Below the pieces are notes generated by a model. That model made no database searches and was not told where the DNA came from. It saw only the letters and a program-made list of their open reading frames with translations. A stretch of 64,000 nt of DNA, taken from positions 372,001 through 436,000 of the forward strand of contig NZ_CP094461.1 of NCBI RefSeq assembly GCF_022809715.1, written 5' to 3'. Positions within the stretch are counted from its first letter, which is position 1; every line of letters starts with the position of its first letter. This document shows, one piece after another, positions 41,278 through 47,597 of this stretch. The translations under genes and the position numbers were made by a program. The DNA is from Burkholderia pyrrocinia (lineage in GTDB: Bacteria; Pseudomonadota; Gammaproteobacteria; Burkholderiales; Burkholderiaceae).

Positions 41278-41319
41278 GTACGCTTTCGTACCGCATTCGC
41301 ATTCGCCCGTGTGTAGCGT
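41278..41319 (+). promoter_or_regulatory. Crp/Fnr-type class II promoter module toward DUF3096 gene
   Basis: GTACG-CTTT-CGTAC (41278-41291; arms extend to CGGTACG/CGTACCG) is followed after exactly 22 nt by TAGCGT (41314-41319), within GTGTAGCGTC. If TAGCGT is the -10 element, the dyad is centred at -41.5, the class II Crp/Fnr position. The same module occurs at 46946-46987 and 47556-47597. Confidence 0.65.
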
Positions 41320-41621
41320 CAGTATATCCACGAACAATCCGCGGCGAATCAGGCTGCGACGAACATTTCCATGAGGTGCGCCGGGATCGATCCTTGCTAT
41401 CGGTGTAGTAGTTCCGGGATGTGCGACGACCGGCACCGCCGACGCCAGTGGCAGCCAGATCGACCAACGCCACACCATCGACGCGGGCGCCGGCCCGACC
41501 CTTGCGCACCGTTGCACGACTGCCGAAGGCTCGCGTGTCGCCGGGCTCGAGCCGCTGTCACGAACATCGGAGGCGGGGCGGCTTTGTATTCATGTGTTGT
41601 TTTCAATCTTGCGGAGGGCGT

Positions 41622-41768
41622 ATGAACATCCTCACGAGCGCGGGACCACTGGTTTCGCTGATCGCCGGCATTCTGATTCTTGTGGTGCCCCGTCTGTTGA
41701 ATTACATCGTTGCGATCTACCTGATCGTCATCGGGTTGCTCGGGCTGTTCGGCGGACATATCCACTGA
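41622..41768 (+). CDS. DUF3096 small membrane protein
   Basis: This 48-residue protein is almost entirely two hydrophobic helices: MNILTSAGPLVSLIAGILIL and VPRLLNYIVAIYLIVIGLLG, the full DUF3096 pattern. These tiny inner-membrane proteins have no known function. GGAGGGCGT precedes the ATG at 41622; the open frame extends far upstream but without protein-like sequence. It is the first gene downstream of the Crp/Fnr-type module at 41278-41319. Confidence 0.85.
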   Translation: MNILTSAGPLVSLIAGILILVVPRLLNYIVAIYLIVIGLLGLFGGHIH

Positions 41769-41961
41769 CCCGGGCCAGCCACGAAAAAGCGGGTTTCGAA
41801 CCTTGCAGGCGGCACCCGCGATCGTCGAACCGCTGCCGTCGCCAGGTCCGCACGGAGTCGACCGCGCAACGATGTGCCGGTGCGTTGCCCGGTTGCGCCG
41901 TCGCGTGCCGATTGCAATCGAGGTCGCGCGGCCGGAATGATGCGCCGCGACGTTCGCGATT

Positions 41962-43251
41962 TCACGCATAGCGGCGCATCAGCGGTGCCGCTGAAATGCC
42001 GTGCAGCACGATCGACACGGCGATGATGGCCAGCACCCACGGCACCAGCGGCAACAGGTCCGCGCGCGGCCCTTGCTCGAGGGCCAGCATCAGGTAATAC
42101 AGCGAACCCACGCCGCGAATGCCGAACCAGCTGATCAAGCGGCGCTGGCGGTGCGACGCCCGGGACCCGATCAGCGCGAGCTGGATGGCGGCCGGCCGGA
42201 TCACGAACAGCAGTGTCGCGACCACGGCCACGCCCGTCCAGGTCAGCATGCCGGCCCAATAGCGTGACACGAGCGCGCCGATCAGCAGGATCAGCACGGC
42301 TTCGGCGATGTGTTCCAACTCGGCCGTGAATCCCATGACCGATTCCGCGACGAACGCATGGGCTTTGTCGGGATCGGTGGCGGTGGCTTCGACATCCTCG
42401 CTGTCCACGACGCCGACCGTCTCCTTCGGCGTCTTCCGGCCGCTCGTTCGATGCTCTACGCGCCGCATCGCGACGCCCGCCGCGAATACGGCCAGGAACC
42501 CGTAGCCATGAATGGCGAGCGTCACGCCGTACGACAGCATGATCAGGCCCAGCGCGAAGAACCCCTCGAAGCCGAGCGCCTGTCCGTGACGGCTGCGCAG
42601 GAATGCGACGAGCCGGGCGGTGACGAAGCCGAACAGCCAGCCGGTGCCCACGCCGGACGCGATGCCCCATGCAATGCCGCCGACCATGCTCCAGTGAAGC
42701 GCCGGCGTCGGGCCGGAGCTGCACAAAAGCAGGCCGAGCACCGCGCACGGGTAGGCCGTGCCGTCGTTGATCCCCCCTTCGCCGGACAACGAAAAACGCA
42801 CCAGCTCGACGTCGCCCGCGTCGCGCACGCCGACGTCATGAGCAAGTACCGGGTCCGTCGGCGCGATCATCGCGCCCAGCAGTACCGCGACGCCGACACT
42901 CAAATGCAACACCAGCACGCCGAGTGCGGCGATCGACGCGACGGTGAAGATCATCGCGACGACGCCGAGCCGCAGCGGCAGCATCCAGCGGCGATCGACG
43001 GGCGGGACACGCAGCTTCAGGCCGATCGCGAACAGCGAAATCAGCAGGCCGATTTCGGCGGCGATGCGCAACCGCGCGACGTCGTCCGGCAATGTCATGG
43101 ACAGGATGCCGATGCCGGCTGGGCCGATCAGAAAGCCGATCCCGAGATACACCATGGCCGCACTCAGCGGCAGGCGCTCGAGCGACGATCCGATGAGTCC
43201 CATGAAAATCAGCAGGGCTCCGAAAATGAGGCATCCGATCGTTTCGGTCAC
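41962..43251 (-). CDS. Monovalent cation/proton antiporter, CPA1-type
   Basis: This 429-residue membrane protein has about 12 helices and starts with a proposed GTG at 43251 (VTETIGCLIFGALLIFMGLI). CPA1 hallmarks are MIAPTDPVLAHDVG in the core helix and SGEGGINDGTAYPCAVLGLL, equivalent to the SGESLLNDGTA motif of Na+/H+ exchangers. A conserved Arg region follows near HIAEAVLILLIGALVSRYW. It exchanges Na+ or K+ for protons across the inner membrane, fitting pH or osmotic stress. No cytosolic nucleotide-binding domain is attached. The upstream part of the frame to 43362 is not protein-like. Confidence 0.88.
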   Translation of the reverse strand: MTETIGCLIFGALLIFMGLIGSSLERLPLSAAMVYLGIGFLIGPAGIGILSMTLPDDVARLRIAAEIGLLISLFAIGLKLRVPPVDRRWMLPLRLGVVAMIFTVASIAALGVLVLHLSVGVAVLLGAMIAPTDPVLAHDVGVRDAGDVELVRFSLSGEGGINDGTAYPCAVLGLLLCSSGPTPALHWSMVGGIAWGIASGVGTGWLFGFVTARLVAFLRSRHGQALGFEGFFALGLIMLSYGVTLAIHGYGFLAVFAAGVAMRRVEHRTSGRKTPKETVGVVDSEDVEATATDPDKAHAFVAESVMGFTAELEHIAEAVLILLIGALVSRYWAGMLTWTGVAVVATLLFVIRPAAIQLALIGSRASHRQRRLISWFGIRGVGSLYYLMLALEQGPRADLLPLVPWVLAIIAVSIVLHGISAAPLMRRYA

Positions 43252-46020: not shown

Positions 46021-46806
46021 TTATCGGTCGCCGTGCCAATAGCCGTGCTTGCCGTAGAACTCATGCAACTCGATCTCGTAGCTGCGATGCACGAGCTGCG
46101 AGTCGTCGTATGGAGGGCTGCGGCGGATCGCGTCGCGCGTGAGCGTGGTCGATACCGTTTCCGTCGGCCAGTCCACCTGGTCGAGCCAGTGAGTCGCGAT
46201 CAGCACTTCCTTGCCGGTCGACCACCAGCTCGACGTGTCGATCGCCAGATAGCGGATCACCCAGGCTTCATCGTCGTAAATGAAGTCGAACACGTGGCCG
46301 ATATGTCCGTCCTTGACTTCGAGCCGATATCCGTCGACCTCGCGGGTGCTGTGCAGATGCGTATCCGCCGCTGCGCTGGCCGGCGCGGTGCGCGAGACGA
46401 GCGGATCGCCCGCTTCAGGATCCTGCGACGGCCCGGCGGGATCGAAAGCCGGATACGCGCCCATCCCCCAAAGGTTCGGGCCGCCCCAGTAAGTCGGGTA
46501 GTTGTAGTAACGCAGGTACTCGATCTCGTGCTGGCGCGATACCGGTTTGTGCGTGTCCACGTTCGGGCTGTCTCTCACCTGCTGTTGCGTGAGGCTGACG
46601 TATAGCGTGCGGGTTTCGGGGTCGGCATGCGTGACGGAATACGGCGAGACCAGCACCTGCCTGTCGTGCAGCCAGTCGCCCGTCTCGACGACGAGGTAGC
46701 GGATGCACCAGTTGTCGTCGTCGAAGTAGGCCTGATGGATACGCCCGATATCGCCGTCCTTCGCTCGAACCGTGTCTCCGTGCAACCTTCGGATGCTTCG
46801 TAACAT
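46021..46806 (-). CDS. Double PRC-barrel domain protein
   Basis: This 261-residue soluble protein has two PRC-barrel modules: residues ~1-80 (MLRSIRRLHGDTVRAKDGDI, YLVVETGDWLHDRQVLVSP) and ~150-235 (VDGYRLEVKDGHIGHVFDFI, YLAIDTSSWWSTGKEVLIA), joined by a Tyr/Pro/Gly-rich linker. The ATG at 46806 has GAGGAC upstream. PRC-barrels are small beta-barrels found in photosynthetic reaction centre H subunit and RimM and in many stress proteins; the function of this type is unknown. The promoter module at 46946-46987 lies upstream. Confidence 0.85.
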   Translation of the reverse strand: MLRSIRRLHGDTVRAKDGDIGRIHQAYFDDDNWCIRYLVVETGDWLHDRQVLVSPYSVTHADPETRTLYVSLTQQQVRDSPNVDTHKPVSRQHEIEYLRYYNYPTYWGGPNLWGMGAYPAFDPAGPSQDPEAGDPLVSRTAPASAAADTHLHSTREVDGYRLEVKDGHIGHVFDFIYDDEAWVIRYLAIDTSSWWSTGKEVLIATHWLDQVDWPTETVSTTLTRDAIRRSPPYDDSQLVHRSYEIELHEFYGKHGYWHGDR

Positions 46807-47239
46807 GATGTCCTCGCCAGATCGATGCTCGGCACGTCGGTGATCCGGCTGGCATGCCTGCCGTGCGGCGGCGTCCAGCCGTACGTCCGTCGGTGCGGAG
46901 CGATTCCTGCCGAGCGCGTCCCCTCGGATGGCCGGCATGCTTGAGACGCTACACGCGACGAATGGCCGATGCGGTACGAAACCGTACAAAGCGTGTGCGG
47001 GGGCGATCCGGCGGCGAACCGTCCCCCTCCCGACATGTCGCGAAACATCCTGTCGATTTTTTGTCATCAGGATCACGAAGCGGTGAAGATCGCCAGGGTC
47101 CGCTCGTGCCCTGCGTAATTTTCAAATGGGGCCTATGCTGGCGTCGTGACCAGCGGTATTCCACATTGGCGGGCCGGCCGCAGGCGGCCAGTCGAATCCG
47201 GGGCAGCCCGGTCCGACCATCAGCTCCATGGAGGCGGTT
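46807..47239. other. Divergent intergenic region
   Basis: About 430 bp with no supported gene. It contains the Crp/Fnr-type module at 46946-46987 directed at the double PRC-barrel gene and the unassigned promoter of the small gene at 47240. Confidence 0.5.
46946..46987 (-). promoter_or_regulatory. Crp/Fnr-type class II promoter module of the double PRC-barrel gene
   Basis: On the reverse strand GTACG-GTTT-CGTAC (46987-46974) is followed after 22 nt by TAGCGT (46951-46946) within GTGTAGCGTC, the same ten bases as at 41311-41320. The dyad centre is at -41.5 if TAGCGT is the -10 element. The leader to the ATG at 46806 would be about 130 nt. Confidence 0.7.
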
Positions 47240-47422
47240 ATGCGCAGCAGGTATCGAGAGAAGCATACGAACGGCAGCAAGAGCGAGCGCAATGTCGACG
47301 ACGCGGTCGAGGGGACGTTCCCCGCCAGCGATCCGCCGTCGATAGGCGGTGTCACCCGGATGATTTCCCGCCCGGCCCATCGAAAGCATCACCGGAAATC
47401 GTCACACGTCAAGCACCGTTAG
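47240..47422 (+). CDS. Small hypothetical protein with FPASDPP motif, 60 residues
   Basis: [20 protein letters not shown], then [20 protein letters not shown] and a basic tail. The acidic segment ending in FPASDPPS is a recurrent motif in small uncharacterised proteobacterial proteins. GGAGG lies six bases before the ATG at 47240; the ATG at 47228 overlaps that site. Probably disordered; function unknown. Confidence 0.6.
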
Positions 47423-47555
47423 CGCAGGTTGCGCGATGCGTGCCAACGCCTTGCGTGACAGGGATCCATCGAGTCGTCGCCGGCATTCAGCGATATCGAT
47501 GAACGCGGAGGCATCGGTCAGAGCGACGGCGAGCCGATATTCCCGGTCTTCCCGG

Positions 47556-47597
47556 GTACGGAACCGTACCGACTTCCGATGCCGGTGCGCGCAGCGT
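47556..47597 (+). promoter_or_regulatory. Crp/Fnr-type class II promoter module of the single PRC-barrel gene
   Basis: GTACG-GAAC-CGTAC (47556-47569; arms extend to GGTACGG/CCGTACC) is followed after 22 nt by CAGCGT (47592-47597), one base off the TAGCGT of the other two modules. The start codon at 47680 would be about 76 nt from the transcript start. Confidence 0.65.

Follow-up and report, generated by a model that had tools for sequence, protein, structure and literature searches.

Why should one exact inverted repeat recur, each time with a similar hexamer at the same distance, between the genes of a single Burkholderia pyrrocinia locus, and which protein might act on it? We analysed 64,000 nucleotides (nt) of this genome (GCF_022809715.1, contig NZ_CP094461.1, positions 372,001-436,000 of the forward strand; this whole stretch is called the window, and coordinates count from its first base), in which the dyad GTACG-N4-CGTAC stands four times in the neighbourhood of a gene for a Crp/Fnr-family protein (48204-48923, minus strand). 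In our judgement it is very probable that the four sites are class II promoters of one Burkholderiaceae regulon, activated by this protein or a paralogue together with ordinary sigma70-type RNA polymerase. A dimer of the 48204-48923 protein, or of its paralogue elsewhere in the genome, would bind the dyad centred at -41.5 and replace the -35 contact, recruiting the polymerase to a weak YANNNT -10 hexamer fixed 22 nt downstream. The dyad is conserved, keeps its fixed spacing, clusters around the regulator and co-occurs with it across the Burkholderiaceae, and from these patterns we infer binding by the regulator, activation, and use of the hexamer as the -10.

Proposed Promoter Layout in the Window

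The four exact dyads lie at 41165-41178, 41278-41291, 46974-46987 and 47556-47569, where about 0.06 would be expected in 64 kb, as an earlier sequence-only reading of this DNA had estimated; none of 100 shuffles reached four. That reading had described three sites with a dyad, 22 nt and TAGCGT or CAGCGT, and their coordinates and spacing proved exact: the hexamers exactly 22 nt from the dyads are TAGCGT at 41314-41319 (plus strand), TAGCGT at 46951-46946 (minus) and CAGCGT at 47592-47597 (plus). The fourth dyad, near the CsbD gene, is also present, but at 41165-41178 and not at 41169-41182, four bases from where it had been placed; at 22 nt it has CAGTGT (41142-41137, minus strand, toward CsbD), giving the full layout in all four dyads. 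The combination of dyad, 22 nt and YANNNT thus occurs four times in the window as against none in 60 first-order Markov sequences of window length. All four sites are intergenic under the gene placement used, in agreement with the earlier reading, with the proviso that the 46946-46987 site would fall inside its PRC-barrel gene if this started at an in-frame upstream GTG at 47076 instead of at 46806. If the hexamer is the -10, the dyad centre comes to -41.5, the class II position that had been proposed, counted here from the putative -10 and not from a mapped start.

Across the whole 7.69 Mb genome there are 11 such dyads, four of them in the window, and seven have YANNNT at 22 nt, again including the four. 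The first of the three full sites outside the window is upstream of a 72% identical PRC-barrel paralogue, the second lies immediately downstream of a regulator paralogue (87% identity), ahead of a small open frame that recurs at several such sites, and the third lies within a long open frame with high third-position GC content (GC3), where it probably arose by chance. Among the four dyads lacking YANNNT at 22 nt, two of the three that were checked also lie within long high-GC3 frames.

The Layout around Regulator Homologues

The 48204-48923 protein combines a cNMP-binding-like domain with a Crp-type helix-turn-helix (Pfam HTH_Crp_2 53.0 bits, cNMP_binding 31.8 bits) in a Crp/Fnr fold, which places it in the Crp/Fnr superfamily, and both linkage and co-occurrence put it forward as the candidate activator. 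We collected 76 loci (1.40 Mb) by homology to this protein alone (77% identity or more, best 80 matches kept; some loci overlap or are same-genome paralogues), drawn from Burkholderia, Paraburkholderia, Trinickia, Caballeronia, Pandoraea, Cupriavidus, Ralstonia, one "Burkholderiaceae bacterium" and a metagenome-assembled genome labelled Bordetella. Paraburkholderia xenovorans LB400 has at least four homologues, of 79-84% identity, among the matches listed. When all 5-bp half-sites with gaps of 0-12 were counted in them, GTACG with a gap of 4 was the commonest inverted repeat, with 119 places spread over 53 loci as against 61 for the runner-up. YANNNT followed at 22 nt in 108 of 234 dyad flanks, as against 19 for the next-best spacing; on at least one side it stood at exactly 22 nt in 101 of 117 unique dyads, and on both sides in seven. 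The full site was present in 51 of the 76 loci. A smaller set, comprising the window and 20 stretches around regulators, some positioned to include already known sites, gave YANNNT at 22 nt in 39 of 80 flanks, the next spacing occurring three times.

These counts, together with a site excess limited to genomes that carry the regulator (below), make the nearby Crp/Fnr protein the likely regulator, as the sequence-only reading had suspected. Autoregulation was considered and rejected, with nothing convincing upstream of the window regulator; among the 76 loci, a same-strand site within 700 nt upstream of the regulator was seen in two copies, both from Pandoraea. In the recognition helix, the close group reads RRS or RRP (RRA in one case) and paralogues of 45-65% identity read RRE in 18 of 19 cases; we do not claim this single residue as a key to specificity, because one homologue of 73% identity, located next to a site in another family, carries RREG.

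A few dyads appear to be shared by a divergent promoter pair, YANNNT standing 22 nt away on either side (L144 9581-9594, L145 12799-12812, L146 3795-3808, L147 14164-14177). At L088 4184-4197 (genome G057), a dyad read by eye has TAGTTT at 23 nt, not 22.

Co-occurrence of Site and Regulator

In the genus scan the search pattern read backwards served as control. Among 61 genomes of the genus, the scan for the dyad, 22 nt and NAGCGT that the sequence-only reading had proposed gave matches in six, all belonging to the 14 with a close orthologue of the regulator (85% identity or more). With the hexamer relaxed to YANNNT, 18 genomes matched, namely 12 of the 14 regulator-bearing ones and six of the 47 without it; sites numbered 54 as against 11 control matches in the former, and six as against 26 in the latter.

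Searching 299 Burkholderiaceae genomes for the dyad followed by C-N21-YANNNT, we found at least one site in 49 genomes from eight of 25 genera, with 118 sites in all as against 26 control matches, the control never exceeding one per genome. Site and regulator were both present in 34 genomes, the regulator alone in 11, the site alone in 15 and neither in 239. The 45 genomes with the regulator held 98 sites versus three control matches, and the 254 without it 20 versus 23, so that the excess is confined to regulator-bearing genomes. Where a genome had two or more sites, it had the regulator in 19 of 20 cases. The fixed layout, the dyad peak around regulator homologues and this co-occurrence argue for the single regulon that had been suggested from the window.

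Several points weigh against this interpretation. Eleven of the family genomes with the regulator have no exact site, the full site was not found in 25 of the 76 regulator loci, and an upstream scan of the window regulator returned no exact dyad. The bit-score cut-off for the regulator in the family (385 bits) was chosen after inspection of the list, at a gap, and the p values (Fisher p 1e-23 for the family table) overstate independence, because the genomes share ancestry. Elsewhere in the order, 338 genomes gave 12 sites, spread over 10 of them, as against 28 control matches. Further, 15 family genomes have a site without a close regulator; one of them, G319 (contigs C7 and C9, stretches L151-L153), is the exception among the genomes with two or more sites, with six well-formed sites and a best regulator homologue of only about 60% identity, and no regulator homologue was found in the stretches fetched from it. 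Likewise, 13 of 20 long loci picked by the motif lack a homologue of 70% or more, and seven have one.

The sites of G319, the 15 genomes and the 13 loci would suit an explanation in which the regulon is real but the dyad is bound by another protein, either a more distant Crp/Fnr paralogue or a member of a different regulator family. We regard this as unlikely, though not negligible. Paralogues of about 47-50% identity are listed in most genomes of the genus, many of them without sites, the dyad peak was found around close homologues, and in family genomes without a close regulator the sites do not exceed the control.

A wider spread of the system through the Burkholderiales was rejected, there being no excess of sites over control outside the family. 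Sites were nevertheless seen there beside Crp homologues of 73% (L194) and 40% (L198) identity, which we treat as a lead only because of that lack of excess.

The Putative -10 Hexamer

To describe the site itself we reduced 132 sites to 73 distinct ones, gathered by the YANNNT pattern and partly also by the C after the dyad, with chance sites included; the A and T of the hexamer are pre-set by this pattern, so that spacing was tested freely only in the 76 loci and the smaller set. Immediately after the dyad, C and then G predominate (65 and 64 of 73), and conservation is weak over most of the remaining spacer. At the first hexamer base (-12), C occurs 39 times and T 34 times, and positions 3-5 are nearly free (0.12-0.26 bits). 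Two flavours of site can be told apart, one with A at position 17 and C at -12 (31 of 42), the other with C at position 17 and T at -12 (16 of 18; p 9e-6).

The sequence-only reading had seen in the AGCGT hexamers a -10 type of their own, and this part of it finds no support, since the middle bases are nearly free across distinct sites and AGCGT is found in just seven of the 73. The same figures bear on the proposal that these promoters depend on a dedicated sigma factor recognising a -10 of the TAGCGT type, which we consider very unlikely: AGCGT does stand at a fixed distance in three window sites, but its rarity elsewhere and the low information at positions 3-5 speak against it, and the remaining A and T match a sigma70 -10. 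The hexamer fits both the TAN3T -10 of NtcA promoters (PMC3898017) and the TAnAAT -10 of a B. cenocepacia transcript-start map (PMC4603805). It also fits a weak and loose sigma70-like putative -10, and such weakness would be consistent with dependence on an activator. That the dyads represent a dispersed repeat or some other palindrome (repeat DNA, terminators) and not operators is hardly credible, since, for all that copies cluster and seven of the 117 unique dyads are flanked on either side by YANNNT at 22 nt, spacer and flanks vary freely between sites, the 22 nt are fixed, and sites in different genera repeatedly precede the same gene families.

Comparison with Known Crp/Fnr Systems

FNR/Anr/Dnr regulators (FixK-type) offer a parallel, being Crp/Fnr dimers whose 5-4-5 dyad occupies the class II position, with TTGAT-N4-ATCAA as the FNR-type box. 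The window system shares the dimer type and the dyad arrangement; it differs in that its regulator has no N-terminal cysteine cluster. The first cysteine is residue 142, so an FNR-type iron-sulphur cluster would not be expected. FNR/Anr boxes matched once at up to one mismatch in 64 kb, where 0.46 are expected, and at none of the four sites; with boxes at chance level in the window, an FNR/Anr operator was rejected.

Another close likeness is to NtcA. NtcA-activated class II promoters, according to two descriptions (PMC3898017; PMC9430850), have GTA-N8-TAC centred near -41.5 and a TAN3T -10, and for some of them a distance of 22 nt from site to -10 is reported. All four window sites fit GTA-N8-TAC with YANNNT at 22 nt, two having the T of TAN3T and two a C, and the window regulator shares the NtcA fold, the structural match to NtcA being one among many close Crp-family matches. 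There are also differences: the half-site is longer (GTACG), CG usually follows the dyad, C is about as frequent as T at -12, and the targets found concern stress and carbon, not nitrogen, in another phylum than the cyanobacterial NtcA. NtcA (TIGR03697) is the sole NCBIfam match of the protein at E 0.001 or better, a weak one of 22.6 bits against the equivalog cut-off of 244.95. The geometry supports an NtcA-like way of working well. By its protein score, however, the regulator does not belong to NtcA, and we take the regulon to be an independent, new Crp/Fnr regulon. A search of the Protein Data Bank (PDB) sequences with the regulator returned two weak Crp-family matches, and a whole-text search for the NtcA recognition helix gave no lead.

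The lxa (low-oxygen-activated) locus of B. cenocepacia (BCAM0275A-BCAM0323) is likewise a Burkholderia stress island with predicted Crp-family regulators; its named products, universal stress proteins, acetate kinase and polyhydroxybutyrate (PHB) enzymes, are unlike the genes near the four sites, a comparison of product names alone in which many lxa products are "hypothetical", so that some overlap may exist (PMC4981469). In the titles and abstracts searched, no description of the dyad or the regulon was found, the coverage of subscription papers being poor, and among the relatives listed the regulator bears only generic names. We consider it rather probable that this is an unnamed, Burkholderiaceae-wide stress and carbon-metabolism regulon, in which an uncharacterised Crp/Fnr subgroup would have reached an NtcA-like operator (GTA-N8-TAC, 22 nt, TAN3T) independently, with sites in two flavours, CGACTTCC with CANNNT and CGCATCCG with TANNNT. 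A generically named regulator, with close homologues in Burkholderia, Paraburkholderia, Trinickia, Caballeronia, Cupriavidus, Ralstonia and Pandoraea among the matches listed, would thereby gain a precise candidate operator and a testable list of targets.

Candidate Target Genes

Candidate first open frames, chosen by third-base GC, were found for 163 of 176 unique sites in the examined loci; orthologues are counted repeatedly in the following figures, many of the single frames probably do not represent genes, the choice of first frame may be mistaken at some sites, and the names are Pfam names from one member per cluster. The largest clusters are Ysc84 lipoprotein (37), PRC-barrel (30), AMP-binding coenzyme A (CoA) ligase (9), SPFH (8) and DnaJ (7), followed by AI-2E permease (6), Nramp (5) and pyridoxal-dependent decarboxylase (5, glutamate-type in our own reading). 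Smaller ones are CsbD (4), carboxypeptidase-regulatory-like (4, below the Pfam cut-off), and DUF3096, desaturase, phosphoglucomutase and DUF3309 (3 each). Among those found once are the regulator itself, a phasin, an alcohol dehydrogenase, an aldehyde dehydrogenase and a Crp-family protein that has several N-terminal cysteines.

The "small stress genes" of the sequence-only reading are represented (PRC-barrel, CsbD, DUF3096), but the term is too narrow for a candidate list that elsewhere includes CoA ligases, a glutamate-type decarboxylase, DnaJ, SPFH, Nramp and phosphoglucomutase. Taken together, the Ysc84, PRC-barrel, CsbD, DnaJ, SPFH, CoA ligase and decarboxylase candidates, with the single dehydrogenases and phasin, suggest a response to energy or oxygen limitation or to slow-growth stress, and would tie a number of small, poorly understood stress proteins (PRC-barrel, CsbD, DUF3096, DUF3309, Ysc84) to one proposed switch. 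The site before the cysteine-bearing Crp-family protein lies just ahead of its open frame (L217 578-1399) and hints at a link to FNR-type oxygen control.

Genes of the Window

The predicted CsbD promoter (41137-41178, minus strand; predicted start near 41130) faces a CsbD-like gene at 40853-41029 (minus strand; Pfam CsbD 50.6 bits), whose start may lie upstream at 41047. Orthologous sites are found in loci L078, L080, L081 and L082, the hexamer of the last being CAACCT.

The promoter predicted at 41278-41319 (plus strand; start near 41326) had been read as pointing toward DUF3096. The 48-amino-acid DUF3096 gene (41622-41768, plus strand; Pfam 67.7 bits) is indeed the first intact gene after it, but a Ysc84 lipoprotein gene remnant lies between (41354-41536, plus strand; tblastn 70% over 60 amino acids, E 5e-23), and Ysc84 is the usual target in relatives, with DUF3096 following. 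Behind a promoter that looks intact, only the N-terminal third of the gene is left; the remnant contains an in-frame stop and lacks most of the C-terminus. The Ysc84 gene is intact in loci L078 and L081, where 96% identical DUF3096 copies come after it; in genomes G036 and G026 a promoter of the 41278 type stands before an intact Ysc84 gene and DUF3096 lies about 60 nt beyond that gene, and in G027 Ysc84 is broken.

The remaining two sites serve as predicted promoters of PRC-barrel genes. That at 46946-46987 (minus strand; start near 46939) precedes a gene for a 261-amino-acid protein (46021-46806, minus strand; Pfam PRC 36.5 bits), and that at 47556-47597 (plus strand; start near 47604) a gene for a 142-amino-acid protein (47680-48108, plus strand; Pfam PRC 47.2 bits).

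A fatty acid desaturase is encoded at 38127-39329, with no exact dyad nearby; in L144 another desaturase from its Pfam family comes after a site. Further along, 53110-61634 holds a cluster of urea carboxylase/allophanate hydrolase type (DUF1989, biotin carboxylase, amidase, ABC permease) that is apparently unrelated.

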